A stretch of 64,000 bases of DNA from Jaminaea rosea (Eukaryota; Basidiomycota; Exobasidiomycetes; Microstromatales), in assembly GCF_003144245.1 (NCBI RefSeq), contig NW_020289976.1, forward strand, positions 310,001 to 374,000, in the 5' to 3' direction. The position numbers and the translations under genes were made by a program. Below, piece by piece: positions 7,245 to 55,555 of this stretch. Each line of letters starts with the position of its first letter. Positions within the stretch are counted from its first letter, which is position 1. The notes beneath the pieces were generated by a model that worked only from the letters and a program-made list of their open reading frames with translations, was not told the origin of the DNA and did no database searches.

Positions 7245-10200
7245 TCAGTCCCGTATTTTCTCCTCCGCCTCCTGCCTGACAAGCAACATAGTCTGCAGCT
7301 TCCTCCCTACCAGCTCAAGGAAGGTGCTCCTCTCCCTGGCGTTGCTTACGATGCTTGACCCGCTAGTGCCTGCTACCCCGTGCTCCTCGCCAGCATCAGC
7401 GTCCATGCGCTGCATCGTTAACAGCACGCGGCCAAGGCGCTCCAAAACCAGCTGCACCATTTGAGCCCCATCGTCAAGAAGGGCAGAAAGAGTCGTACTG
7501 TCCGCAGCAAGAGTGCCGATCGCCTTGTTCGTCGTCGGTACATTCTGGCGTCCTCCCATCCAGGGCGCTGCGTACCCAGCATCAACGCCTTGAGGCGGTG
7601 CGCCGATGCCGCTGCTACTCGCCATGGACTCATCGTCCAGTGCGGCGAGGTAATAGGCAAAGTGACGCTGGATCACCACAATTAGGACATCGACCACGTC
7701 CAGTCTCTGAGTTGCCTTGCCCCTCATCTGGCCCAATTTTGCCAATACAAGCGCGGAGCGACGCAGCTGCAGTGAGCCTACGTCTGGCCTCGTTGCAGCC
7801 GAGCCTGTGAGTGCTTCCCATTCCTGCAGGCCAACGTTCTCCCCTTCATCAAGCATAGAGCGCAACCTCTCGGCAAGTGGAAGATCTTGCTCCAAAGAGG
7901 CGACTTGCTCGTCCATTGCCGCTAAGGCGATACCCAAGCTGGGGACAGATGCTACTCGTGTGCTCGCGCCATCGGGTCCACGAGAACGACGCAGATCATC
8001 GTGTGAGTCGTACCCTGGTGTGCGACCTCGTCGCCCTGCTTGGTAGGGCTGCGGAACTGCCAGTGACGAGGAGAGGCAGGGTCGAGCGACTTGACGGCCA
8101 GCGAGTGGCTCACTTGCTGCTTCAAGGTAGGACGTCAGGGAGAAGATGAGCCGTGAGACTGACCGAGCGGCGTTCTGGTCGAAGACGCTCTCTTCACCCC
8201 GGTTGACGAGGTCGCGTCCGTCAGCGTGGTCCCCGTCCATTGCCATATCGGCTGTGCCGCCGCCCACAGTGGTAGCCTCCTCCTCCCTCTCCCTCTCAGT
8301 GAATGGCAGAACCCGTCCTCTCCAGGCGGTTGAATGCAAGAAGCCGGCCGCGGCTTGCAGAATTGCGCTGTGGTATGCCGCCAACGGTCGCGGCGCGACC
8401 AAAGCCTCATCGTCGAGGATGGGAAGCACCTGTAACATCAAGGTGACGACCAAATGCGCCTCGTCCACCGTCGAGAGAGACACTGTATCCTGCACGGCAG
8501 AGCGCAGCACTGCGAGTAGGGACTCGCGATGGGCGTTGAGGAGGCTGAGCGCTTGGTTACGAGAAGTGGCGGAGCCGGGCGCGTGTGCCTCGGAGCGACT
8601 TCTTCCTGGGCCGCCAGTTGTAGCCTGCACAACAGCTACGGCGACCTGCAAAGCCGGCGTGAGCAGCGCAGCGTATCGCTCGGTGGCGGCTGGTAGAAAG
8701 CTTTCCAGATCAACAAAGTCCTGATCCTCCTCCGGTCGCGCAGCAAGGAAATCCGCCTGGCAAAGCGTATCGAACAGCTTTGCTTCCAACAACCGCTCAG
8801 CCCCTCTGCGACTCGAGGCCAAGCGACCAAAGAAGGCCAGCTTCGCTTCGTAGACGTACAGTGCATTGAGGCTTGGAGGGTCGGGGCGGAGGATTGATTG
8901 GAGGGGAAGGTCCATATCCCTGAGTCGGGCCACGAAAGATTTGAGGTACCCGTGTCGGGTGAGTATGTCCAGCACCACAGGCGAGCGACCACTCTTGCTT
9001 CGGCCGGTGGACTCGAGTGCGCACAGACGGTCGAGAAGAGTAAAAGCGACCGTCCGCCAGACGTCCGGCGCATCAAGCGCGTCACGGGCGAGCACGGGGA
9101 CGAGTCGCTCGGCGTGTTGCGCCAGGAAGGTGCGGGTACGGCTGTCGAGGCTTGAAGGTTGCTGGTAGTCTCCACCGCCGTAGGCCGATGCTCCGCCCAT
9201 GGAGCTACCGATCAAGCTTTCCCCATCCGCGTAAGAGAAGGAATCGTCACCCACCAGACTGTCCCCACTTGCGCCGAGTGGATATTCCCCGCCCTGGTTG
9301 GTGTTGGCTGCGGCGCGTACGAGCTGCAAATAGTTGATGAGCGCCGAGTACAGGTTGCCCCTGGCTGATACTGAGGTCCCCGCCCTGAGAATGGCCCCCG
9401 TGAGGGCAGCCAGGGTCGAGAGCAGTCGATCAATGGGGAGCTCGTCCGTCAGACCCGCCCCTACAGGAGCTTGGGCACGATGTCGTCTCAAGCTAGTCAG
9501 CAACGACAAGATAGCTCCAGCGGCCAAGTCGGCGAGCACTGGGTCTTCTTCCGGGGCCGCTCCGTCCAGCCTTGGCAGCAGAGCAGAAAGAGAGTCAAAC
9601 ACCACGAGCGGCTGCGCTTCCGGCCTGAGTAGGAATTCGCCGTGCGCCAGAACGAGATCCTGCACGTTGCGCCAGCTTGCGAGGGCAGAGCGACGACACT
9701 TGGCTACCGCACGGTGAGCATTGCGGGCGCTGACGTGCTGCAGCACGATGGCGGCCTCGGCGTCGAAGTTGGCACGGCGCCTGGCGTCACCGAGCTCGCC
9801 CATTCGTTCCAGTTCACGACGTGCGAAAGCGAGGAGCGCAATCGTCTTGCTGATGTCGAATTGACGCCCTCCAGCTGTCGGCGGCGCCTTGGCCTGGGAG
9901 ACATCCAAGTCGCGCAACATGACCAGCTGAGAGGCGAGCCCGTCACGCTCGTCGTGCCACTCGAAGTCGAAGGATTGAAGCAGAGTGAGGAGACGCATAC
10001 CCACATCTCTGTCTGCCACAGCAGATGCTTGTGCCTGCATGAAGTCCTCAGCACTCTCATCGAAGTCCTCATCGCCATCCTCAAGACGACCGCGCGATAG
10101 GACGAGCCCCGTCCCGTAGAGCGCTCCCACCAGGTGAGCAGCCTGGCTTTGCATGCCTGCGGTGACGAGGCCGTGCAGCTCGATTGCGACGCCGCTAAGG

Positions 10201-13200
10201 AGGTGTTGCCTTGCGTTGAGGCTCGAGATGAGGGCGTCGACCGACGTCTGGGTGCTGCGTCCATCGGCAAAGACGAGCTGCCCGCGGGCCAGACGCGTTG
10301 ATGATGTCTCCTCGTCCTCTTGTGGGTGCAGGCCGCGCTCGACGGGCACCGTGTAAGCAAAGAAGTTGTTCCTGAGCTGCTTGGCCCAGAAATCCTCTTG
10401 CGTTCGCAGGTACCGCAAAGTGCAGGAAGTGGTGTACGGATGGGTGCAGAGGTTGAGCAACAGAGCGAGGGTGCGCTCTGCAAGGGCGGGATGAGTCTCG
10501 AGAAGACTAGGGACCCCTTGCTCCAATGCTTCAGCAGTTTCGTCCTCCGCCAGATCGCGGTCACCTCGCAGCAGGTCGAGAAGAGCGTGCAAGCCTCCTC
10601 GCGGCGATTCGGGCGATGGGGAGGGGATCACTTGATCTTCTGCTCTAACGGCACGGAGGTCGTAGCCCAGAAGGAGGTGCGCGAGGTTCGGCGCATGCTT
10701 GCTGGTCGAGGTGCCGATGAGAAGAAGCTCCAGAATAGCACGGCAGACTGCCGCATTCCCACAGGACGACGGGGCAGCGATACCCAACAGCTGCTCTTCA
10801 CTGCTGTCCTCCTCGGCATCGTCCAGTCCCGCGCCCCGCGGCACCGCCTCTCCTTCATCGTCACTTCCAGCTAGGGCGTCCAATCGTCTCACTACGCCCT
10901 CTCTTACCCTCCCGCTCTCCTCGGTCATCTCCAACAATCCAACCAACCTGTTCATTCTTCGTCGCCCCGCACCACCAGACCCATCGGCAAAGCGGTCCAC
11001 CTCACTGAAAGCAGCTCCGTTTGCTACCTCTGTGAGCAGCTTGACACTGAGAAGGGCCAGGTCGTCCCGCACCGAGTTGACGTAGAGGGCAATCTGGACT
11101 ACAGATTCGTACTCTTGTAGCATCTTATTGTCGATGGGTGTGTAGGAGGAAGATTGGCCGATGCGAGCGTCAAGGTCGAGTCCGGGGAAGAGCGGAGCAG
11201 GGCCTGCCGCGCCTGACGCTGCTGAGTCGGATAGGCCGGCAAGTGTGGGGAGGAGAACTTGCAAGAAGAGACCCTGGCCCTTGATGGCCGCCAGGATGAT
11301 ACGCATAGCCGTACCCACAGCAGCGGGAAGGAAGATGGCGGATCGCTTCGCTGCGGGTGAGTCGACAATCTCGTATCCTGCCGCTGTGGTTGCAAGGCCA
11401 GGAATGGGCTGCCCGCTCATGTTGGGAGAGAGGAGTGCCAAGATCTCTTTGAGGAGCTTACTCGTGCTCATCAGCCTCTTCATCACTCCGAAGCCAGGGT
11501 GCATCGCGAGGCGAAGGAGGGTCTCGCGATCTTCTGCTCCGCGTTGTCCGTTCCCCGCTGATACGCCTACAGTGCGCGTGAGCGAGGAGAGGTCGAATGC
11601 TGAAAGACAGCGATGCAGGAAGTGCAGGCAGGAGGAGATCAGCCGCCACTTCTCGCTCAAGGCGGCGAAGTCGCGCGGTCCGTTGGCCGCGAGAGAGGGG
11701 AGCAGGACCGAGTCGACGACGAAGGTAATGTACTTCTCCAGTCCGACATCCACTCCATGGCCAGAGCCTTGGTGTGCAGAGGCGGCGCTGCCTAATGATT
11801 GCGGAACACCGAGCGGGAGGCTAGGTTGCTGGCCCAATGGCCCAGCGAGGGGCAGATCGGCCACCAGAGCACCCACGTCCCCGCCTGCTCGCCCGCCGGG
11901 TCCAACGAATTCGGGGACAACGAGAGCAGAGAGGAAGTTGATGAAGCTGACCGTGCCCGGGTAGAAGCCGCTAGCCGCCTCGACGTTCTCGAGCTCGAAC
12001 AGCACGTCCGACGGGGGAGCCTGCGCAGCTCTGAAGCTCCCGCCGAGTCCGCCAAATCTTGCTGCTGCTACGTTGCGATTGTTGGCGTGAGGCCCGCTGA
12101 GGATCCCGCTGGACTCGACGAGGGACCAGAGCTCCTGTCTCACTCGCGGTAGACGAGCAGAGGCAGCTGTCCCAGCTGTCAAGCCATTCTCGCGTGCAAA
12201 AGCAGCCATGGTGTCCAGAAGAGTAGCCTTGAGCTCAATGGGGATGGGGCACACGTACAGTGCAAAGAGACGCTGCAGTACGCTGGTGCCTGCACCGCCT
12301 GAAGCAGAGGAGGGGAGGCCAAAGGGGTTTGCAGCCATTTGTGGCGCTGAAGAGGTACCAGGGTTGGCTGCATTGAGCGTGAGGGCCAGGATGGCTTCTC
12401 GAGCCGCGTAGCTGCCAGAGACGACGCTACGAAGTAGCCGAAGAAAGCTGCGTAGGAGGGTCATCTCGCCGGGTGGCATGCTGGCGCGCTCTCTGTCCCC
12501 GCCTCCGCGAAGCGCATCGACGTAGTACGCCATCCAATCCCAAAGTCTGTTCCACGAGATCAAGCCATCATCCGCTGCTCCTCCCTCCGCACTGCTGCTG
12601 AGCAAGGCGTGAGCTTGCCACGCCCCCTCGCTGCCTCCGGTCGACATGGCGCTGAGCAGGTCGAGGAGGGCGCGCTGATGTCCTTCCTCACGCAGCTCGA
12701 CCGCCCACATGACGAAGCGTGATCTCCTGCCCTCAGGTGTAAGCCAGAAGGACAGCGACTTGGACGCATCGCCCCGCACGACAAGGGCAAGGCCATCGAG
12801 GAAGGCTTCGAGGTCGTAGCGACGCACGTCTTTTGAGCCCGGCCGGAGGACGGAGTAGGCTGCGTCTTCTTCCTGGCGCTGAAGCTTGCGCAGCAAAGAG
12901 AGAAAGGTGCGCGAGATGCCGAGCAGGAGTGAGTGCAGGCTGGAGAGGAGGTATGGCTGAAATTCGATGTCGATCTCGTCTCCTGCATCAACGCCCAACT
13001 GGGTGGACTGGGCTTGCGCTGATGCTGCGCCGCTTAGGGCGTCTTCGTCCTCTGTGCCCTCAATGGCATCGAACAGGCGCTGTCTCCAGCCTAGAAGGCG
13101 TAGGACCAGATAGATGAATGCGTCGCCTTGCTGAATGGCCTTGAGCACCGCACGGCTGACCGAGTCTTCTGACACGTTGAGCTCGTTGCCCAGGCTTGCG

Positions 13201-14320
13201 TCGTGCTTGACTACCTTGACGAGGAGAAGGGACCATTGCAGCTGGACGACGGCTTGCAGCGAAAGTGATGCCCAGCCGGACTTGTTGATGAGGGTGTCCA
13301 TCTGACTGAGAGAGGTTCGGTCGTCGAGCAAGTCAGGCTGCCCGGCGCCGACAAGCCCCTCGAGCGAAGCCTTGGTCGATGTCTCGAGGGCAGCGAGCAG
13401 AGCAGTGAGGACATATGGCATCAGATCCTCCTTTACTCCCGTCGCCTCGTCCTCCTTGACTTTACTAAGCCACTTTGCCATTGCAAGGATCTCTTCGCCC
13501 TGCAGCATGGCAGAGATGGCAAGAAGGTAGAGGACATGCGCCCATGCTCGCCTCTCCTGGCCGAGAGTCGAGATGCGTTCGAGCTGAAGCTCATCTGGGA
13601 GTCTACGATTTGGATCTGAGGGTGGATTGCGAAGCGCATTTTCCACAGCATTTGCCTGAGACTTGAGCGAGTCGATTTCGAGGAGGATCCTCTGCAGCAG
13701 CGAGACGTCCCGCCTCCCGGTTCCATCTGCGTAGGAGACCTTTAAGCCAAGTAAAGCTTGCACGGCCTGATTCATCTTCAGTCCCAGCCTTCTCTGCGAT
13801 ACATCGGCCTCTTGCGGGAGCGTGACAGCTGCACTGACGAGCTCCTTCCAAGCCTCTGTGAGAGCCCAACGCTCTCGCTGATGAAGCACGAGGGCGATCT
13901 CGATGGGAGAGCGTGATGGGTATCGAGAGCGAGATGAGAGGGCATCTTGTAGGAGAGAAGCGCAGTACTTGGCTGAAATGTTGAGATTGGTCGCGAGGAG
14001 GATGGTGAGTGAGGCAAAGTCTGAGTTGAGGGTGTGCGTCGTTGATCCTAGGGTGATTTTGCCTTTGGAGCGATGGAGAGGATGGGGTAAGCTCGACGGC
14101 ATGCTGGCATGCAGGCTGTGCACTCACCCGATTCAATCTCTTTCAGCTCAGCATTGTCCCCGGCTTTCACCCTTCCCAGATCCACGAGTTCATTTCTCAA
14201 TCCATCAACTGCGATGTACCATTCGTTCGAGGTCCCAGCGCTGCTCGAAGGCGCAGCGATGGCCCTCTGGATGAGGTTGTGCAGTCGAAAGAACTGCGAC
14301 GGCACAAAAGTGTCCGCCAT
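7245..14320 (-). CDS. NUP192: Nucleoporin Nup192/Nup205
   Basis: Large inner-ring scaffold nucleoporin, 2336 aa, two exons: 14320-14128 and 14062-7245. The ATG at 14320 opens MADTFVPSQFFRLHNLIQRA; a 65-bp intron (donor GTGAGT, acceptor AAAG) then joins phase 1 to a single exon of 6.8 kb. Size, all-alpha solenoid character and the N-terminal order (helical start, then GKITLGSTTHTLNSDFASLT) fit the Nup192/Nup205 family, which spans almost the whole chain. Asp/Glu/Ser-rich inserts break the helical repeats in several places, as is common in basidiomycete copies. No membrane segment or catalytic motif is seen, as expected for a scaffold that binds Nic96 and Nup53-type linkers. Confidence 0.88.
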
Positions 14321-14712
14321 TGTCTTTGTGTCCTCACGAGGAGGACGAGCAGGGGGTTCTGTTGGTCGTGAAGAAGGGAGGTTGTGTGTGTCGAGATGGA
14401 GGTCCGCGCTCAAAGCAAGCGCGAAGATCGGACGGAGTTGAGCGAGGCGGAGAGAGCGCGCTTCAAGTCAACTCCAAGGAGGAGCGAGGAGCGAGGAGCG
14501 GACAGAGCCATGAGCACGCAGCGCAGGCCCATCCATGGCACGACCATTACCTTGGCTGCGATCCAACACCAGCGGGTGAGAACACGCGCAATACCATTCG
14601 CTGGCACTGAACCTGGCGCACGCTCAGGTCAGGCTAAGGGGCACACGTGAATGGCTTCGATTGACGACGAACCGGGCTCGAGCTTAGTGAAGTTGACACT
14701 GATCTCCCCCAC
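14321..14712. other. Gap between NUP192 start and cysteine-rich gene A
   Basis: About 390 bp holding the NUP192 promoter and leader and the 3' UTR of gene A. A tandem GGAGCGA stretch lies at about 14478-14500. No gene is seen. Confidence 0.45.
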
Positions 14713-15446
14713 CTACTTCATCACTACACCCTCCTTCTCAGCACGACGAGTTATGTTAGGTCCCAAAAGTCCCGCATCTAGGTCGGCGTCCCCTTTTCCC
14801 TGGCACCAGGCCTGGTAGTCGCAGCAGATGCAGCCGGCCACCTTGGAAAGATCGTCACAGTTCTTGCACTGATGGCCATCGAAAGGGCAAGGGAGGGCAC
14901 ACGCGTCAATGGTTTTGTCGACGAAGAGAGCAAATCGTACTCACACCGTCGCGGCTATGAGAATACCCAAAAATGAGAGACTGAGGCTATCAGCAGGGGG
15001 ACTTCAGGGCTGGCCTCACTGAGCACTCGCCAGAGGTAGCCCGTGCTCTGGTGCTGATGGTATCATGGCATAGCCGCCGATAAGAGGAGCAGCGAAGCGT
15101 TTCAGCGCTCCTGAACTTCACACCAGCTACTACTGGCCATGAAAGGTACGCACGACATCCCAAGACTTGCAGGGCACGAGGAAGGCGACATTCTTCGACA
15201 GCGTGCCGGTGATGGGCACCTCCTGGCCTTTGCATTTCTCCTCTGCAACGGGCGAAGGAGATACGGGCGTGATAAGGGCTACATGGAGGCTCAGAAGCAC
15301 CACAAATCGATGCTTCATCACTCACGCGGGTAGCAAGAGCCAATGCGCGTGGTGCCTTTGCCCATCACGGAAGGGATGGCATGCCAGAGGTTGCTCGTTG
15401 TGAGCATGACGGTCAAGAAGGGGAGGAGATTCTTTAGGGATGGCAT
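14713..15446 (-). CDS. Small secreted 10-cysteine protein, copy A
   Basis: Unrecognised family; predicted secreted, 132 aa. Five exons: 15446-15326 (121 nt), 15242-15154 (89), 15053-15031 (23), 14954-14945 (10), 14868-14713 (156). The N-terminus MPSLKNLLPFLTVMLTTSN is a signal peptide. The mature part has ten cysteines spaced C-x5-C-x20-C-x12-C-x3-C-x2-C-x8-C-x-CC-x5-C, opening with IGSCY and ending AGCICCDYQAWC. The 23-nt exon uses a GC-AG intron (donor GCGAGT), where copy B has GT. Evidence for the tiny exons is mutual: only with them do A, B and C share the cysteine spacing and exon phases. Unlike B and C, A has a 29-residue tail with an NIT sequon and a dibasic RR. An effector or antimicrobial role is possible but only inferred. 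Confidence 0.75.
14945..14954 (-). other. 10-nt micro-exon of copy A
   Basis: CCGCGACGGT is flanked by a TAG acceptor and a GTGAGT donor. It adds residues RDG between cysteines 4 and 5; its first base completes the fourth cysteine codon (TG|C). Confidence 0.7.
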
Positions 15447-15878
15447 TGCCAGAGTTGAAGGTGACGTTTCGCAGGGGCACCTTCAGCAAGGGGACCGCTC
15501 AGCGCTGGAGTGAGTCAAACCTCAGGCTGCCCCTGGGCAGGGCGTAGGGGCAGGCTCGGGGATCCGAAAGAACTCCCGTGCGAGACGCTTGGTAGCGAAA
15601 AACACCGAACAGCGCGGCGAGCAAAGGCGCGACGCCAGCATGGTACTCGCATTTTCACGCTCATGACGACTGTGTAGACCGTCCACGGCGGAAGTGTCGC
15701 CAAACCCGCTTGCGATTGCCGCAGCGTTCATCACGAGGGTCATCGGGAATGACCACAGTTAGCATGGACAGAAGGGCAGCGTGCACGTGTCTACAGTTGT
15801 TGAGCTGAACCCGATTCCATCTCGGCTCATCCCTTCTGTCTCGAACTCAAAGGCCATTGCAATTACACCCGCCCGGTG
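15447..15878. other. Gap between cysteine-rich genes A and B
   Basis: 432 bp, presumably the promoter of A and the 3' UTR of B. No fourth copy of the CCD-type cysteine motif is present, and no credible ORF. Confidence 0.45.
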
Positions 15879-16508
15879 CTAGGCGCACCAGTTACGCCAG
15901 TCGCAGCAGATGCAGCCCGCCTTGTTCGCCAAGCTCGTACAATTGTCGCACTGTGGCGCATTGAGGGAACAGTAGAGCGCCGCAGTTAGCCAATGGCTTC
16001 CATGTGGCGATAGTATCAGGAGGAAAAGTAACGCACCCCGTTTTTGCTGCAAGGGCGAGTGCGTGGTGATCCAAGTCTGCAACAGTTCAGCTGCGTTCTT
16101 CATCCTCGCGGCTCTGAGCACTGACCAGAGCTGACCAGTGCTTCGCACCTACGGTCGGTCAGGGCATCGTCAGCACAAGGTACTCTGGCTGGGCATGCAT
16201 TGAGACACGCACCGAAAAGAAAGCCCTGCAATTACTGAGAAGAATGGGGTCCTTTAAGTTCTCGCTGTTGATGTCTGTTCCTGAACCCTTGCAATCGTCG
16301 TCTGAGATGAGAGCGCAGAGGCAGATGCCGTGGTCAGCCAGAGGTTGCGGTAGACATGACGAAGTAGCGTACTCGTGTAGCACGTCCCCACCGTGGCGGT
16401 GGCGTTGGCCCTGAAGCTGAAGTCAAGGATGGCAAGCAACCAGAAGCTATTGACGAAGAGGACGGCCGTGAGGGCGGGCCAGGTGAGGTGGGCAAAGAGA
16501 GAGGGCAT
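15879..16508 (-). CDS. Small secreted 10-cysteine protein, copy B
   Basis: Paralogue of copy A, 109 aa, same five-exon plan: 16508-16373 (136 nt), 16301-16213 (89), 16148-16126 (23), 16046-16037 (10), 15950-15879 (72). Exon 2, the 23-nt exon and the 10-nt exon have exactly the lengths and phases of copy A. The N-terminus begins MPSLFAHLTWPALTAVLF with a long hydrophobic signal region. The mature chain runs from VGTCYTNDDCKG to AGCICCDWRNWCA, with spacing C-x5-C-x20-C-x12-C-x3-C-x2-C-x8-C-x-CC-x5-C. The last intron has a CTAAC branch point about 35 nt before its CACAG acceptor. Skipping the two tiny exons leaves nine cysteines and loses the shared spacing. No function is claimed. Confidence 0.75.
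16037..16046 (-). other. 10-nt micro-exon of copy B
   Basis: CAAAAACGGG lies between a CCCTTGCAG acceptor and a GTGCGT donor. It contributes KTG between cysteines 4 and 5, in the same phase as copy A. Confidence 0.7.
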
Positions 16509-17147
16509 TGTGCTGAGGGTGCAGAGGAAGGAGCTGTTGATGAGAGGGGAGCCACGAGATAGCCTTTTGAACCATTCTTTCACTCCTCTACTGCGCGGGA
16601 TATCACAGGCTCGGTCCTGTCGTCAAACCCTCCTCGGCGTGAAGTAAGACTCTTCGTGACAATCGTCTCCCCCATACTCTGACCCTCGTGACCTGTGCGG
16701 TATCCAATCCGTCCACCGACCACAGCCGCAAACGGCGACAATGGTCATTGGAGTCGCTTGGAAGAAGAGTGCTGGCAGAAGTGCTGGCAGAATTCGTAGG
16801 AGCCGTTCTAAGCGTGCGAGAGGGCGGAGGAAGTCACGGCGCTTTTGCATCAGTCACCGCAATCGTCAGACAACGATCACAACTTGCAGGCGGTATGAAT
16901 AACAGCATCACATGCATTCGTAGGAGCTGAAGTGCGGTATGCCGCAGTGGCTTCAAAGTTTCTTGCGTGTATGCCTCAGCCCAGGAAGGGTCTGTTGGGA
17001 CAGGCACGGCGATGCCAACTCAGATAGCTGAGAGCACTCTCAAAAGCGTCAATTGCCCTCCTTACAGCCTCTGCCCTTCCTATTCCTCGTCTCCCAACCC
17101 TATTGCTTCCCTCCGTGCGCCTTTTGAGTGTACAATCTCTCACCATT
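16509..17147. other. Gap between cysteine-rich genes B and C
   Basis: 639 bp. It was searched for another copy (GTCY, CCD and CxC codon patterns on both strands) without success. It is probably the promoter of B plus the 3' UTR of C. Confidence 0.45.
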
Positions 17148-17635
17148 TCAAGGGCAGAAGTTGGTCCAATCGCAGCAGAGGCACTCCCCCACCTTGTTCA
17201 AAAGCTGGCAGGTCTGCGCGTCACAGCTGGTCCGAGAGTACATGATCGACAATGAGTGGCTAGCAACGTCAGCCAGCCAGCTCGCCAGTCGCTTCGGCGC
17301 GAATGTGCTGCAAGGTCAGTTCAGTCTCCACGGCCGACTCACCTGCCACGACTGCGGCGAAGGGAAGACGCCTTCGGTCAGCCTCCCTGTGATCTTGATC
17401 ATAGCGTCGAGTGCGTGCCCACTCACCAGACTCTGCCCCCAGCATCAGCGTTACGGAAAGTGTTGCAGTTCACACCGATGGCTAGCTTGTCGTTGCCCGT
17501 GCCTTTGACCGTGCCAGTGGGCTCACCGAGGCAGCTCCTCATTCCGTAGCAGGTGCCAATCTTGTAGACTTCCGCGGCCCTGAGCAGGATGAGGTGGAAG
17601 ATGACGATGGCGAGCGTGAGGGTGAGGGGCGACAT
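17148..17635 (-). CDS. Small secreted 10-cysteine protein, copy C
   Basis: Third paralogue, 98 aa, three exons: 17635-17427 (209 nt), 17351-17343 (9), 17226-17148 (79). The N-terminus MSPLTLTLAIVIFHLILL is a clear signal peptide. The mature part starts at YKIGTCYGMRSCLG and ends GECLCCDWTNFCP. Cysteine spacing is C-x5-C-x21-C-x12-C-x3-C-x4-C-x8-C-x-CC-x5-C, matching A and B apart from one residue before cysteine 3 and two before cysteine 6. The first three exons of A and B are one exon here, so introns were lost or gained. The micro-exon is 9 nt instead of 10 and the following intron is in phase 2 instead of 0, which looks like a one-base boundary shift. C is the most diverged copy and lies furthest from NUP192. 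Confidence 0.75.
17343..17351 (-). other. 9-nt micro-exon of copy C
   Basis: TCGTGGCAG sits between a CGCCGCAG acceptor and a GTGAGTCGG donor. It completes a cysteine codon (TG|T) and adds R, G and the start of S. Both splice sites match consensus well. Confidence 0.75.
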
Positions 17636-18020
17636 GGTTGGTGAGCAGGTAGGGAAGTGGCGTGGCTTGGTAGTATGAGGTCCGGAGGGGGTCTGCGAGA
17701 CCGCTGCTCGTCAGATTTAGTCCCTCTGCACATGTTTACATCTCACGACTCATGTGACCTTCATAGACCCGGTCATGCTCGCATCTCGGGGAGAAAGGTT
17801 GCAATTGCGGCTCTGTTCCCACCGTGAGAGGCTCCATGAATGCTCAATGATCCCGCGCGACATTCAGATCTCCCCGCTGAAAGATCTCTTCATTGGCATT
17901 CGCGGCTTTTCGGTGTCACTGGGTGAGGCATGGTATCACGATTGCCAAGACGCTGACTTCGAGCTTAGCGTGCCTCCTGCAGATCTTGACATTGTTCTGG
18001 CACCTCGACTCGAAGCAGGC
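17636..18020. other. Gap between copy C and BTB gene
   Basis: 385 bp between copy C and the BTB stop, both on the minus strand. It should hold the promoter of C and the 3' UTR of the BTB gene. Nothing else is seen. Confidence 0.45.
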
Positions 18021-19817
18021 CTACGAATCGAGCTTGATGGTGACAAATCTCGGATTGCCCCCACCCCTTCCGATGAGCGACCCACTCAACTCAAACATCC
18101 GGTCGAAGAGCACCTGCACCCATGCTTTCGCCGCTTGATGGCAAGCGGCCAGCTCCTTCGGCCCGTATGCGGCTACGCCCGCGCTGCCTCCACCTCCCAC
18201 AGATCCCACGCCGCCCAAGCCGCTACTGCTAGATGCAGAGCTTGCAGCGAGCGAGGCCGCACCTCCTGCAGGTCCCGTCTCGAGTTCACGCAAGTGTCGC
18301 CAGACCACGCTCGGCGTCGGCGGGCCAAAGCGCGTAGCGACGGCGAGTGCATTCGTCCATCTCTCGTGTAGTAGAGCCGCACAAGCCTCCGGATGAGGGC
18401 AGTGTGCCTGGCATAGAAAGTCTCTCCCTGGATTCAAGGTGAGACCCAACTTGAGCAGCCGTTCGAGGAACCAAGTACGCCTCCTTTCGAGCTTGAGCAA
18501 CGTCTCTGCGCTCAGCATTGCGAGCTCTTCCGGGTCCCACTGCTGCATATGATCGAGGACGTGTCGCGAGGCTTCCTTGTATATGTCACGTAGTCGGGCT
18601 TCGTCAGCGATGCGCAGGGCGAGAATGGGTCGACCGGCGAGGGAGGTGCGCAGGAAGTCTTCGATGACGCAACGGCGGAGGGCATAGACGTCGTACTTGT
18701 CTGCGAAACGGAGGAGGGCGGCTGCGTTGCGCCAGGTGATACTGAGAGAGAGGTGGGGATAAACGTGCGCAAGTGCTGCAGAGAGCGTCTCGGCATCGTC
18801 CTCTGGCAGGTCGATTACAGCGGCTAGGCGATGAGTTGGGTATGGGGATGACGGGGTATGCGCTGGAGCCTTGTCCTTGCTGCGCTGCTTCTTGCTGGTG
18901 CCCATGCGATGGCGTTGGCGTCGACTGGAAGCAGAACGGACACTGACCGGCCGACCGCCAAAGGAAGACCTGGATCCACGGCGGGAGGTGGGAGGAGTGG
19001 CTAACTTGGCCATGCTTGCCAGCCGGCTGGAGGAGGAGGAGGTGGTAGCCGCTCCCGTACTCTTCGCTGAGCTACGCCTGCCTTCGAGACGATGCAGCGT
19101 GTCACTACGAGATAAATCGTGCTGCGCGTCGTCGAGCGAGAAGGTTGCCGTGTGGAAGGAGGAGCGGACTGATCCTCGCCGAGTTGATTGGAGCTCGGGG
19201 CTGACGTTCGCGTGACCTTCGTCGCTCACAGTGGCTGCTTGACCAGCGCCGTCGTCCTCTTCATCCTCGAGATCTTCATCGCTAACATCCGAGAAGCAAT
19301 CGTCGTCGTCGTCGTCATCATCATCATCACCGCCGTTGCCTTCATCCTGGGCTTTCTTAGGCGAGTCGAGATTCGTCTCCTTCCAGTCGCCCTCGAGCAG
19401 CGAGCGAAAGAAGGGCGATGCAAACCAAAGGACATCGCGATGGCAGTAGAACTCGACCATCTCAGCCTCGCCTTGCCCACCTGCCTCAATGGGCGTCGCC
19501 CTTGTCCTTATCAGGACATCGCCCGGTCGATCTGCGTCACGCCTGAAAGTAGGATCGACCTGGAATCCACTGGTCTCATGACTAGCTTTCAAATGGCTGC
19601 TACCAGGTGCATTTGGTTTGACCGCGCTCCAATTGTGCCACTGCGATGTCTGCGGGACATTGGACAGCGTCCTGCTCGATGAGCTAGCGCCTGTATGCTC
19701 CGTCGATAGGCTCGTTGTCGGCAAGGGTGCCTGCGAGAGGTGACGAGAGAGGAAGTTGGACATGTTGGGAGCGAAGCCAGAAGACGCAGTTGGTCGCCTG
19801 TCGTTGGACGAAGCCAT
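18021..19817 (-). CDS. BTB/POZ-domain protein with large insertion
   Basis: 598 aa, single exon. It contains a BTB/POZ fold split in two. The first half (about residues 98-148) has GDVLIRTR and FYCHRDVLWFASPFFRSLL; the second (about 329-400) has LAAVIDLPEDDAETLSAAL, AHVYPHLSLSITW and the helix ALLRFADKYDVYALRRCV, then IEDFL and a BACK-like helical stretch. Between them lie about 180 residues of insert with a ten-Asp run, an acidic patch and a Ser/Arg-rich stretch. The C-terminal region has a CHPHPEAC-like Cys/His cluster and a Gly/Ser linker. Proteins of this type often act as adaptors or dimerisation modules; no CUL3-binding or DNA-binding claim can be made. It is divergent from the Rho GEF gene across 451 bp. 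Confidence 0.82.
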   Translation of the reverse strand: MASSNDRRPTASSGFAPNMSNFLSRHLSQAPLPTTSLSTEHTGASSSSRTLSNVPQTSQWHNWSAVKPNAPGSSHLKASHETSGFQVDPTFRRDADRPGDVLIRTRATPIEAGGQGEAEMVEFYCHRDVLWFASPFFRSLLEGDWKETNLDSPKKAQDEGNGGDDDDDDDDDDCFSDVSDEDLEDEEDDGAGQAATVSDEGHANVSPELQSTRRGSVRSSFHTATFSLDDAQHDLSRSDTLHRLEGRRSSAKSTGAATTSSSSSRLASMAKLATPPTSRRGSRSSFGGRPVSVRSASSRRQRHRMGTSKKQRSKDKAPAHTPSSPYPTHRLAAVIDLPEDDAETLSAALAHVYPHLSLSITWRNAAALLRFADKYDVYALRRCVIEDFLRTSLAGRPILALRIADEARLRDIYKEASRHVLDHMQQWDPEELAMLSAETLLKLERRRTWFLERLLKLGLTLNPGRDFLCQAHCPHPEACAALLHERWTNALAVATRFGPPTPSVVWRHLRELETGPAGGAASLAASSASSSSGLGGVGSVGGGGSAGVAAYGPKELAACHQAAKAWVQVLFDRMFELSGSLIGRGGGNPRFVTIKLDS

Positions 19818-20268
19818 GCTGAGCTGAGCGTCTCACATCGCCGCCCCAGCAGCGGCAAGCAGTTGTCGCTGAGGTGTGTGGTAAGACGTGTCGACTGGTT
19901 GAGATGTCGTCTCCGTGTCTCCACTCTGCCTGCCTGGCTGCGCCTGCCGTCAAGGCGATCGCAGGGCGCAGCTCGCAGCTCGCTTTCGCTTTCATCTTGG
20001 CTGTGGCTTAGGGCCTCTGTTCCGCCAAGGGCGGACGGCGGCGGGGCCCGCTGCGCCGTCGAGGGATGAGACACGCCTTTGAATCCATATCGCACCCCGT
20101 CGCGGCTTCCGTTTCACCGCTCCATCCATTCGGAGAGCTCACAAACGAAGACGACGGCGGTCAGTGGACTGCGTCTATTCACGACATCATTGCGTGCAGC
20201 CTCTCTTCGTCTTATCCACCACCTGCACGCGCGGCCACTGAAGAGCCGCTTCTCACATCATCATCATC
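19818..20268. promoter_or_regulatory. Divergent BTB / Rho-GEF promoter region
   Basis: 451 bp between two divergent start codons; presumed shared promoter and both leaders. The + side ends in a (CAT)n run just before the GEF ATG. No specific motif is claimed. Confidence 0.5.
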
Positions 20269-48182: not shown

Positions 48183-50865
48183 ATGATCTCATCAACATCA
48201 CGTATCGTATCAGCCGTCGCAGCTACCGCGGCTGTCCTCGCCCTGTCCACTGCGCCAGCGGCATCGGCCGCGGGCAAGTCAGCGGCCAAGAGCTGCAATT
48301 GCCCTGGCCAGTATGAGACCATTGTCGAGAACTCAAAAGCATCTGCGATGATGCTCGGTCTCATCAATGAGGACTACGTCTGGATTCTTGACAAGGTCGA
48401 GAACAACCGCGACAAGGTGCCTGGCTCCAACAAGCCAGCATGGGGCTCCATCCTTAACCTCAACGACAATTCGGTCAACGTCATCGACGTCAACACCAAC
48501 ACCTTCTGTGCCTCAGGATCAACCCTCGGCAACGGTTCGTGGGTGGTTGCTGGTGGTAATCAGGCCATCTCATACGGTGGTGAAGCCATCGCCACCGATG
48601 CGCCTCCATCAGCGCAGCCCTACGGCGATTACGATGGGCGCAAAGCTCTCCGTATCATGGAGCCCGTAGCTTCTGGAGCCAACAATGCCTCGATCAGCTG
48701 GAGTGACAACCCTGGAGGAAACGTCATGCAGTCGCAGCGTTGGTACCCTGGTATGGAGACGATGGCCGATGGCTCCATCATTCTCATTGGCGGCGCTACT
48801 GGCGGCGGATACATCAACCGCAATTACCCCAACATTGACCGGTGAGTACACCGCGCGTCTAGTGAGAAGAGACCTTCGCAAGGCGCTGACACATCCTCCC
48901 ATCGCTCCCCGCCACGCCCGCAGCGCTACTTCCGGAGGTGGATCCAACCCAACGTACGAGTACTTCCCCTCAAAGGGCACGCAAAAGACGGCACAGTTCA
49001 TGATCAAGACGAGCGGTCTCAACATGTACCCTCACATGTACCTCCTCCCTTCAGGCAACATGTTCATGCAGGCAAACTACTCGACGACGATCTGGAAGCC
49101 AGACGATGACTCGTACACCGACCTCGACGATATGCCTGGCCAGATTGTCCGTGTCTACCCCGCCTCTGGTGCTACGGCCATGCTCCCTCTGACGCCCGCC
49201 AACAAGTACACTCCGACGATCCTCTTCTGCGGTGGCTTTGCTACGACGGACGCTCTGTGGGGTGACTTCACCGCTCCTCGCTTCAACGCTCTCACCACCG
49301 CTGCGTCGGACGATTGCTCGTCGATCACACCCTCCAACTCAGACGGCAGTGACAATCCCAACGCCAAATACGTCACCGAGGAGAAGCTCCCTGAGCCACG
49401 CACGATGGGTCAATTTATCCACCTGCCCAATGGCCAGATGGTCATCGTCAACGGTGCGCAGAAGGGTACTGCTGGATACGGTAACGTCTCTGCTGGTGCA
49501 AAGACGAATGACGGCTTCGTTTGGGACTGGACAAACATTTTCAACACCTCAGACGGCCAGACGGTCTACACCGAGTCGATGAGCCAGGACCCCACCTACC
49601 AGCCCGTCCTTTACGATCCTGAGCAGCCCATGGGCTCGCGCCTGACTCGTGACGGCTTTGGCTCGTCGCCGATTGCCCGTCTTTACCACTCCACTGCTCT
49701 CCTCCTGCCCGACGGCTCTGTCCTCGTCGGTGGCTCCAACCCGCACATGGACGTCGCCCTGACGATGCCTCAGACCATTGCAGGCATTCGCGCATTCAAC
49801 ACGACGTACGAGCTCGAGAAGTGGTACCCGATGTACTACTTCAAGACGCGACCCGAGCCCACTGGCCTGCCTGACCACATCCTTTACGGCGGCAAGACGT
49901 TCACATTCAACATGGACTCTAACTTCATGGGCGACTCTGCCAACTACAAGGCCAACAACACCAAGATCATGGTCATTCGCCCTGGTTACTCGACGCACGC
50001 CATGAACATGAACCAGCGCTCCCTGCAGCTCGAGCACTCCTTCACCGTCAATGGTGACGGCACGGTCTCGTACACCGTCATGCCTATGCCGACCAACGTC
50101 AACCTCTTCCCACCTGGACCTGCTCTCCTCTTCGTCACCATCGACGGCGTACCGTCGAAGGGCAAGTACGTTATGATCGGCCAGAGCCAAGCGGGCGGCC
50201 CCGTCCCATTCAACTACGCTGCTGCTGCAGGCACTCAGCCCTCACTCCCTGCCTCGGTCACCAATGCCAAGTACAACGCCACGCCTGACGAGTCTGGCGC
50301 TGAGTCTTTCGGCATTGGCAAGATTGTCGGCATTGCCGTTGGCGCTGCAGCCTTGATCCTCTTGATCCTTCTTGGTCTCCTCTGCTGGCGCCGTCAGTCG
50401 AACAAGAAGGCCAAGGCCGCTGGCGGCTACGGTGGAGCAGGTGGAGCAGCCGCAGCAGGTGGAGCAGTGTATGGCCAGTCGAGCTACCGTGACGGGGGAG
50501 CTGGCGGCGAGTACAAGCGTGTCAATACCCCCGCAAGCTCAGTAGGCGCGTTTCCTGGAGCCGGGACGCGCGGCAGCCTCGCGACGTACGATTCGTACCG
50601 CATGCAGGACGTCAGTGGGCCCAACACTCCCTACTACGACTCGCCGCGGAATACAGCGACTCGTTCGCCGCTTGGCCAGGATGCGGCCACATTGGGCGGT
50701 GCTGGGGACTATGCGTCGCAAGGATGGGGAGAGCACCGTGGTGGCGATGCCGGGGACTACTACCGCGACAACATGGACCGATCTGACGGCGGTGCGGCGC
50801 AGTACTACAACCAGGGATCGCACCATGCGTCGCAGTACAGCTACGGCAGCCAAGGGCGAAGATGA
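48183..50865 (+). CDS. Glyoxal oxidase (radical copper oxidase), membrane anchored
   Basis: Copper-radical oxidase turning aldehydes to acids with release of H2O2. 866 aa, two exons: 48183-48841 and 48924-50865. Signal peptide at about 1-28, then a beta-propeller glyoxal-oxidase domain and a C-terminal DUF1929-type Ig-like domain. All active-site residues of the galactose/glyoxal oxidase family are present: Cys109 (NTFCASGSTLGNG) and Tyr188 (SQRWYPGME) for the thioether cofactor, Tyr474-His475 (ARLYHSTALLLPDGSV) and His578 (YSTHAMNMNQRS). A transmembrane helix at about 687-710 (GIAVGAAALILLILLGLLCW) and a Gly/Tyr-rich cytoplasmic tail make it membrane bound, like Ustilago maydis Glo1, which is needed for filamentous growth and virulence. 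Substrate is not determinable from sequence. Confidence 0.95.
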
Positions 50866-52353: not shown

Positions 52354-52954
52354 TTAGTTCATCGACCAGTTGAGGCCGTGAAGCTCACCCTCACCGAGGG
52401 ACGCGAGCTTCTTGAAGGCAGCCTTGCTCAAGTCGACGTGGGTGGGCGAGCAAGACTCGCAGAAGTCGACGACCTTTACGGTAACCTTCTTGCTGCCACG
52501 GGAGAGGGTGACCCTGTCGTGGCACTTGAAGGGACTGTTCTGAGAGACGGCGCCGACCATGTCGTTGTCGCTGGGCGTGCCACCACCACAGGCGGGGGCG
52601 TTCATCTGCGCGTGAGAGAATGGACGGGTCAGCGTTGTGCTCGTTACGTGTCGTGAGGGTCTCGTTCTCGGTCACACTCACCTGCGAGCCAGTGTACCAG
52701 GTAGCGACACCGTTGCCACCCTTCTTGGCGGAGGTGTGCTTCTTGTGCTTCTTGTGCTTCCTTGCCTTCTTGTGGTGCTTGCGGCGGCTCTCGAGGATGA
52801 CGTCCTCGTCACGAGCAACCATGGCATCGACATCGGCGAGGGCAGCAGAGCGCTCAGCGATGAGGTCGCTCGAGTCGTTGGCAACGGGAGTAGCGGTGGC
52901 TACCGAGGTGAGGGCCACGAGGGCAACAGCGAAGAGGGAGAGGGAGGCACGCAT
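52354..52954 (-). CDS. Secreted double-psi beta-barrel (RlpA/barwin-like) protein
   Basis: 174 aa, two exons: 52954-52682 and 52605-52354. Signal peptide MRASLSLFAVALVALTSVAT, a propeptide-like region with acidic and Arg-rich stretch (VARDEDVILESRRK), a very basic His/Lys segment (KKARKHKKHKKH), then a DPBB domain from GVATWYTGSQ to the C-terminus. The domain has the typical blocks CGGGTPSDNDMVGAVS, CHDRVTL, VKVVDFCESCSPTHVDLS and AFKKLASLGEGELHGLNW. Four cysteines can form two disulfides. Related single-domain fungal proteins are secreted, small and often expressed on hosts; some are protease inhibitors or expansin-like. No catalytic claim is made. The intron (GTGAGT, GCGCAG) sits inside the DPBB fold, so the second exon alone would lack the ATWY strand. 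Confidence 0.9.
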
Positions 52955-55555
52955 CGTGTTGTGAGAGGACGAGAGTGAAGGACGGTGCTGTTGATAGTCG
53001 AGTAGAGAGGGATCCCGATAGGCTGTCAATCTGAATAATGAGCGTTGTGAGGAGAAGAGAGTAGAGAGACTGACGCCGACGTGGTGCGGGCTGTGATGTG
53101 AGGTAGGGTGGTTGAGGAGGGAGGGAGGGGACGATGAGGATTGAGAAGGCGTGGATAAAAGGGAGTGAAGGATGGAGTGAGTGTGAACGGGTTGAAAGAG
53201 ATGAAAACGGGGACTCTGCCTTGCCGGCGGTTCTTTGATTAATAGCAGCAGCCAATCAGCAACCGCCTGGCGGAGCGACAGGGTGCGGTGCCCAGGGTGC
53301 CAGCTACGACTGCTTCGTGGCCGACGCACGGCGAACGGCAATGAGAGCAAGTTGGCACACTGTCTCGAACGTCGTCACACGCAGAAGAAGCCCCGCTCGC
53401 ACACGCCGCTCGTGGAGTTTCGATCATCATGATTCCGGCATCGGAGTGTCGACGACGAAGACGATGGCTGACGACGACGTTGACTTGAGCTGCCTTGTCC
53501 TAGCGTCGTCGTCTCGCGCACGCACTTGGTTCGTACTTCTATTCTCGCCAACTCGCGAGAAGCAGGGCCCAAAGCAAGATCCAGCAGCTGTCGCATTCCA
53601 CCAACGCCGCCGCTTTGTGCGCGATTTCAGCCTCCGATCAGTAGGGACCCTCGTCTGGCCTGCCTTGCCCTGCCGGCACGTCTACGCTCGCGCCCATGCA
53701 CCCGCCCACACACCAGGCGAAATTACGCTCAATCGTCAGACCAGCCCGGCGACCACACAGCACACACACGCTCGCAGGCGCCTCCATGATGCTCATGGAT
53801 ACATCGCCGAGCTTACGATTGAGCACCATCAAGCTTCGAGACAGGTCGAATTCGTCGTTTGATGTCGTTGAAGATCACTGAACCCGAGCTTCGCGTGGTC
53901 AGCCCTCGCTTCACCATCCTGCCTCGCACACCTCGCCTCACCCTCATCCGTCACTGATCATCGCCATCGCCTAGCCGCCGGCACCAGTACCTGAGCTCAT
54001 CATCGCTCCTTTGCGAGCGAGGAGCTATGGCGCTGCCTGGCTGGCAGGTCCAACCGGGTGCTTCGTTGCTTCTTCTTGCTCAGGATTGGGATCCCGCCCC
54101 CGGGCAGCCTGGTGAGAAGGTGGAAGCCTTCTTCGCAGGCGCGTGGTGCTCCGCCCCGCCGGCCGTCTCGCTGCCCCGGCCTGCCAGTGCCAGCCCTGCC
54201 ATCCATTGGCGCTCGTCAAAAAACGTCCGCACACGCTCGCGACTCGAGTCGAGTCGAAAGCAGAGCAAGCCACAGAGAAAGCAAGCGGCTGATGAGTTGC
54301 AGTGCGCATGAGGCAAGCTCACCAAGCCAGCACAGCAAGTGAGCAGGCAGGCAGGCTTGCGCTTCACATGCTCGTACGCAGCATGCTAGCAAGTCAGAGC
54401 AGACGGTGTCATCGTATCATGTCGCTCAACAGACAGTGAGATCGCCGATCTGCTGGGCGAGCTGGGCGAGCACTGTCACGGTACAGCTTCACGCCGAGCG
54501 TCCACTTTTCGCCTCACGACTCGGACGTGTAAATGGTCGCGCTTTCGATTGCGGACGTCGCCGTAGAAGTGGTCTCACTGCATTAATTTGGCCGTTTCTA
54601 GTGGCGGTACCACTGGTGGTCCCTGTCCGTCTCACCCATGGCAGCTACTTTGAGGAGCGCTGGGTACAAAAGGTCGAACGTGGTCCGAAAGCGGCGACGA
54701 TGAGCGACTGAAGAGGACCTCGTATTCACGACGTGTAGACGTGGCTCACTGTCGTTAGCAAAGGGACCAACCCCGCGAACAGGAAGACAATTCTCTTCGT
54801 CACACCATTTGATAGTACAGGGATTCTTCCGGCTGGCGGTGAGACAGTCGACAGCTTGATGGCTTCGTAACTTCCGAGCTGAGTAGACAATCTCCTCTTC
54901 AAGCTGTCAGGCCGGACACCGAACCAATTCGACGATGTCGTGCTCGATAGTCGGCGCGCTCTAAGATTCATGTCACAGAGCTCCTTCGGTAAGAGCTCCA
55001 TAGCAGGGTCTCCATAGCATGATGGTCCTACACTCGTCCTTGGGAAGTAGGATGGTCTTTTTCAGCCTTGCGCCGACCCAATGGGCAGCCGACTGGGATC
55101 AGTGAGCACATAAAGCCGGCCTCAGACATCAATGCGACCCCTATGGTGTGCTCACTCGCCCTCATCACGATGACAAATTCGCTCGAAGGCGTCACGGCTG
55201 AGCAACCCGCCTGGAGAGGACCTGCGCTCAGGCCACCTCCCCGAAGTCGATGACGCCAACGACGCCCTCATTTACTCGTGACAGGATGAGTGAGCAGACT
55301 GCGAAGGCGAGGATCAAGCTCGAATGTACGGCACTGCTCAGCCTCTCTATCTCGCTATCTACGAAAGCCCGCTCATCCGCCCAGCCTTGTCTAGCCTGCT
55401 TCCGTGTCCGGTCCGGTTCACGAGCGGCCAATCGAGTTGAGTCCAACAGTTGCTACTCCACCCCGGCCGTCGCCTCCGCCTCGCTCCCACCTACTCCCGC
55501 TCGATCTTCATTCCTTTCCTACCTTGCCATCACGAACACCTCGATTCCATATACC
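52955..55555. other. 2.6 kb gene-poor region
   Basis: Promoter of the DPBB gene on the left (GAGG-rich leader to about 53200), leader of the 4E-BP gene on the right. The centre (about 54380-55250) has lower GC than the surroundings and only weak ORFs, including 54726-55001 (-). No repeat, tRNA or element signature is recognised. Confidence 0.45.
54726..55001 (-). CDS. Doubtful small ORF with C-terminal hydrophobic segment
   Basis: 91 aa from an ATG at 55001. Basic N-terminal half, then a hydrophobic segment (IVFLFAGLVPLLTTV) close to the C-terminus that could be a membrane anchor. Codon choice (TTA, CTA, GTA, AGA) is unlike the strongly GC-biased neighbours. It may be a chance ORF, a lineage-specific gene or a relic. 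No family is recognised. Confidence 0.22.
   Translation of the reverse strand: MELLPKELCDMNLRARRLSSTTSSNWFGVRPDSLKRRLSTQLGSYEAIKLSTVSPPAGRIPVLSNGVTKRIVFLFAGLVPLLTTVSHVYTS

Follow-up and report, generated by a model that had tools for sequence, protein, structure and literature searches.

Three adjacent genes in a 64,000-nucleotide stretch of DNA of the fungus Jaminaea rosea (Microstromatales, Exobasidiomycetes, Ustilaginomycotina), the whole of which is referred to here as the window, were originally predicted to encode small secreted proteins arranged in tandem and sharing one cysteine pattern. This raises the question of whether the genes exist in the form proposed, to what kind of family they belong and what such proteins might do for the fungus. 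As judged by sequence comparison, the three genes (A, B and C) form a local branch within a large family of probably secreted proteins in Jaminaea rosea which is built on an eight-cysteine core.

Genes A, B and C share a ten-cysteine frame and an intron position

Splicing of the three minus-strand genes confirmed the original prediction in its coordinates, strand and range of protein sizes (Table 1), and the cysteine spacing claimed to be common to them is exact in the spliced products, with 5,21,12,3,4,8,1,0,5 residues between successive cysteines in gene A and 5,20,12,3,2,8,1,0,5 in genes B and C. An intron at phase 2 of the Cys4 codon is common to all three and, in gene A, directly precedes the micro-exon. 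Genes B and C have five exons each and gene A has three; exons 2, 3 and 4 of B and C are equal in length (89, 23 and 10 nt) with the same intron phases, and their last exons are 53% identical. The introns of the trio are GT-AG, with the exception of one GC-AG intron in gene C (15030-14955). The ten-cysteine frame with its CC pair and the intron position, both found in A, B and C, place the genes together as one subfamily. Branch-point-like motifs were seen in seven of the ten introns, which is close to chance level, and they were dropped as support.

Table 1. Positions of the three genes, their micro-exons and the flanking genes in the window.
Feature	Position	Strand	Description
Gene A	17148..17635	-	98 aa, 10 Cys; exons 17635-17427, 17351-17343, 17226-17148
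Gene B	15879..16508	-	109 aa, 10 Cys; exons 16508-16373, 16301-16213, 16148-16126, 16046-16037, 15950-15879
Gene C	14713..15446	-	132 aa, 10 Cys and C-terminal tail; exons 15446-15326, 15242-15154, 15053-15031, 14954-14945, 14868-14713
Micro-exon of gene A	17343..17351	-	9 nt, Cys4-Cys5 loop
Micro-exon of gene B	16037..16046	-	10 nt, Cys4-Cys5 loop
Micro-exon of gene C	14945..14954	-	10 nt, Cys4-Cys5 loop
Nup192-type nucleoporin gene (flank, not family)	7245..14320	-	Pfam PF11894 on 7245-14123; ATG exon ~14320 by eye
BTB/POZ-type protein (flank, not family)	18021..19832	-	Pfam PF00651, E 1.3e-5, above curated cut-off; no single stretch passes alone

The trio is flanked by the Nup192-type gene on one side and the BTB-type gene on the other, and the window also contains ribosomal protein S8e, EF3 and Mon2 genes; its setting therefore bears no mark of an accessory region. 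A tandem-repeat artefact was rejected, positions 14000-18400 containing a single 12-nt repeat with roughly two copies, as was a structured RNA, with no Rfam match at gathering score within the window. Elsewhere in the window, positions 48670-50865 hold a glyoxal-oxidase-type gene (Pfam Glyoxal_oxid_N and a galactose-oxidase-like early set), and this frame is probably the later part only of an intron-split gene. A frame at 52391-53374 has a Ser-rich start and, by eye, an apparent internal signal-like segment; it has no Pfam match.

An independent profile and an intronless relative support the splice models

Micro-exons of 9-10 nt invite overfitting, and the models were therefore examined in four ways. 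When scored with a profile made from 12 dispersed members of the family, all of them outside the window, A, B and C reached 34.0, 34.9 and 42.3 bits, whereas 129 of 1500 shuffled mature parts of the three were reported at all and the best of them scored 13.2 bits; a chance origin of the match is therefore unlikely. By the same profile the chosen splice forms rank first among the enumerated proteins (12 for A, 143 for B and 67 for C, of which 5, 22 and 19 were scored), with leads over the runner-up of 0.9, 10.2 and 2.2 bits, respectively, in an enumeration whose donor patterns were picked after the models were known and hence include the GC donor. Simpler models with one to three introns had lower scores with the independent profile and broke the spacing, and they were rejected.

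Independent support for the models comes from C17:140954-141175, where the same ten-cysteine frame (spacing 5,22,12,3,2,8,1,0,5) lies in one open frame without intron, with a mature part 35% identical to that of A, about 34-35% to B and 37% to C. At the level of sequence, these comparisons establish that the three genes are coding and that their common frame occurs in intron-split and intronless versions.

Single exons of the trio also have counterparts among proteins found by database search. Protein P0004 corresponds to exon 1 of gene A, slightly changed, and P0006 to exon 2 of gene C at 30/30 residues (by eye), with several residues from the flanking introns differing. P0005 is near-identical to exon 1 of gene B and has Val at the position of the B start Met (16506-16508), so that in the strain of P0005 gene B may be without this start, being either absent or starting elsewhere.

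The trio belongs to a large family found mostly in tandem clusters

A first genome search with an early model of A gave two weak matches elsewhere (E 0.026 and 0.05), both of which keep the cysteine order through Cys7 plus a last cysteine. When a profile was iterated over 81 fetched loci, the coding segments recovered merged to 52, spread over 10 contigs and including a weak one (E 0.07); the reversed-ORF control gave 0 matches. As a match was the reason for fetching each locus, the E-values lack independence. Genes B and C are intron-split and lie outside the 52, and the sum of 51 + 2 gives a lower bound of at least 53 segments or genes in the genome, a count of segments and not of proven genes, as some are single exons, some end before the last cysteine and neighbouring ones may be domains of one gene. 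The family of three implied by the original prediction is accordingly too small. Further candidate members outside this count lie at C3:1391319 (E 1.8e-7), C16:104918 and C20:324988, together with a weaker place on contig C7 (E 0.046).

The arrangement in tandem, which had been proposed for the trio, holds for most of the family: 42 of the 52 segments have another at most 5 kb away, and clustered amplification is thereby evident from the genome sequence. At C1:1872808-1874055, three family segments follow one another on the same strand at intervals of about 500 bases, as three genes or one multi-domain gene.

The conserved part of the family is a domain of about 75 residues with eight cysteines, which approximately follows the pattern G-x-C-x5-C-x20-C-x-S-F-x9-C-x(3-5)-C-x(2-4)-C-x(7-8)-C-...-C; the extra CC pair on this core was found in the trio and in one dispersed relative. 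Intron content varies among the other members, some of which have no intron and others up to six exons. Sister pairs retain their exon lengths, as seen on contig C3 (85/19/123-126/46/13/17 nt) and on C19 (225-231/71/22 nt), and in the seven spliced members that were modelled many introns fall between adjacent cysteine codons. A tree of 39 rows recovered the trio as one clade in 17% of bootstrap trees and left 23 of 36 inner branches open; a subfamily division based on this tree was rejected, as most inner branches are without support.

Members carry signal-like N-termini and one appears to be displayed on a stalk

The signal peptides originally claimed for the trio find support across the family, since 19 of 20 full-length members have a signal-like N-terminus by a simple hydropathy rule of our own, which also called 8 of 66 mechanical window ORFs of 90-140 aa signal-like. 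One member departs from the short format. At C8:435751-438306 an 851-aa frame begins with a signal-like segment, continues with some 700 residues in which Pro, Thr, Glu and Lys are abundant and PENVKPG-like repeats occur, and carries the eight-cysteine domain of the family at its C terminus; it looks like a stalked surface protein.

The family has no convincing match in curated families or structures

In the original prediction the family was not recognised, and this agrees with the lack of a convincing match in Pfam, NCBIfam and PDB. In Pfam, no family was matched by the final A, B and C proteins at E up to 10, and 35 members searched one by one (E up to 0.5) matched 9 families, each with one member and at best with E 0.0012 (DUF3586). 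Pfam has models for CFEM, hydrophobin, cerato-platanin, KP4-type toxin, LysM, WSC and cyanovirin-N, and none of these was matched by any of the 35 members. The same members matched 2 NCBIfam families (E up to 0.5), again with one member each and a best E of 0.044. Against PDB, a 35-member profile had no match up to E 10, and a 16-member profile matched a single toxin peptide of 26 residues (E 0.29), which was taken as chance.

When three alignments were searched against protein sequences, eight different proteins were found, one of them twice: P0001, P0002, P0007 and P0008, which are annotated in J. rosea, and P0003-P0006 (source 'lgn'), which are near-identical to family or window readings. 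The search requires shared 5-residue words and similar length and reaches distant relatives poorly; the eight proteins that it returned include no annotated J. rosea entry corresponding to A, B or C, and no named species other than J. rosea is represented, which is weak evidence of absence elsewhere. The annotated P0002 merges two adjacent, 70% identical copies on contig C16 (C16:117092-118096), a fusion that is likely to be a gene-model error. No description of this family was found among the literature matches listed, as far as titles and abstract starts go.

Two database names were considered. P0001 bears the UniRef name 'Cyanovirin-N domain-containing', and the likeness to cyanovirin-N proteins is confined to that name; P0001 has no precomputed Pfam domain, no cyanovirin model matched in the 35 members, and the name was taken as a guess. 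The UniRef name 'Pectate lyase' has no domain support and was rejected. A viral origin was also set aside, a scan of viral contigs with P0001 alone having returned no relative.

Less diverged pairs are under constraint

The fast divergence that had been proposed for the trio was not demonstrated. Substitutions were counted by the Nei-Gojobori method, and pN is below pS in six less diverged pairs of closely neighbouring copies, hand-chosen from outside the window and in two cases compared over one exon (pN 0.17-0.45, pS 0.59-0.86 overall). The values are 0.17/0.63 for the C19 pair (exon 1), 0.18/0.59 for the C16 pair, 0.32/0.86 for the C3 pair (one exon) and 0.39-0.45/0.65-0.78 for three C12 pairs. 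The pairs tested are under constraint. Within the trio, A-B and B-C have pN lower than pS, with pS near the value for unrelated codons, and pN equals or exceeds pS in A-C; the sites of the trio are near saturation, and the counts are no proof of diversifying selection.

What the proteins may do

In our judgement the balance is even for a function as a repertoire of disulfide-locked extracellular proteins that bind ligands on surfaces, which we infer from the sequences. The proteins would be taken into the ER, acquire four or five disulfides as the core of their fold and work extracellularly, either free or displayed on the wall, as the copy that is carried by a Pro-rich stalk might be. Variable loops between the fixed cysteines would bind differing ligands on the surfaces of the leaf or of organisms living nearby, with clustered gene birth supplying the repertoire and selection against change maintaining the copies. 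J. rosea is placed among the phylloplane fungi in the cited text (PMC7766764), and an interaction with surfaces or microbes therefore fits at least as well as plant virulence. The effector, antimicrobial or self-recognition function that was originally suggested for the trio is likewise conjectural.

Families of known effectors offer a comparison. The mig2 genes form a cluster that encodes cysteine-rich proteins. In Ustilago maydis, which shares its subphylum with J. rosea, the cited text terms mig2-3 and mig2-6 effector genes (PMC4917244); they are likened to the present family by description, and kinship is neither shown nor excluded. The RNase-like effectors of a mildew and the hydrophobin-like effectors of a rust are described as structurally similar and unrelated in sequence, and they resemble the J. 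rosea family in forming large families in which, according to the cited text, the disulfide cysteines and little else are under purifying selection (PMC9816061). RNase-like effectors carry a Y/F/WxC motif; the J. rosea family has an aromatic residue after the first cysteine in many members.

An alternative is that the proteins are plant-directed effectors, secreted into plant tissue to weaken the defences of the host while the fungus passes through a hidden filamentous stage associated with plants, and we regard this as unlikely. Members do have effector-type traits, namely a signal-like N-terminus (19/20), small size and richness in cysteine (98-132 aa with 10 Cys in A-C); they are clustered, and the word-based searches did not find them in other named species. 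J. rosea is filamentous on Tween 40, which the cited text suggests as a possible host-surface signal, but the same text lists the fungus as phylloplane (PMC7766764), and no plant-pathogenic stage appears in the cited texts.

The excess of pS over pN in the six less diverged pairs, which speaks against plant-directed effectors, speaks in favour of proteins of the fungus's own cell wall or of adhesion, whose domain would cross-link or decorate the wall or attach cells to the leaf, with copies specific to stage or substrate. The C8 member, with its domain C-terminal to the long Pro/Thr/Glu/Lys-rich stretch, also fits such a role, whereas the remaining full-length members are short and without a stalk; we give this reading a low probability. 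Antagonistic proteins, antimicrobial or killer-like and directed against competing microbes or non-self strains, would suit small, disulfide-rich, signal-bearing and amplified products of a leaf-surface fungus, and antimicrobial effectors are known in plant-associated fungi according to the cited text (PMC9438471), but the 35 members gave no convincing Pfam match to such a family (one defensin-like match, E 0.08) and we hold the idea to be very improbable.

Beyond the binding repertoire that we favour, the family could conceivably represent a new disulfide-framed recognition fold in at least 50 copies, with loops encoded on 9-23-nt exons and one copy displayed on a stalk, a proposal that we consider highly speculative and doubtful. 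If it were true, swapping or skipping of micro-exons could alter one binding loop at a time while the framework stays intact.

Significance for the family and the fungus

With exons down to 9 nt, and with four annotated J. rosea members returned of which none is A, B or C and one is fused, the family suggests, as a hint and not a count from a word- and length-limited search, that some members of families like this one may escape gene callers. Small secreted proteins rich in cysteine are known to form expanded families, and the J. rosea family is one without a match in the curated families and structures searched. It is large for a yeast-like genome of 16.6 Mb, in a fungus that the cited text describes solely as a leaf-surface dweller (PMC7766764), and its genes are a defined set with which the role of such repertoires can be studied where no disease is involved.
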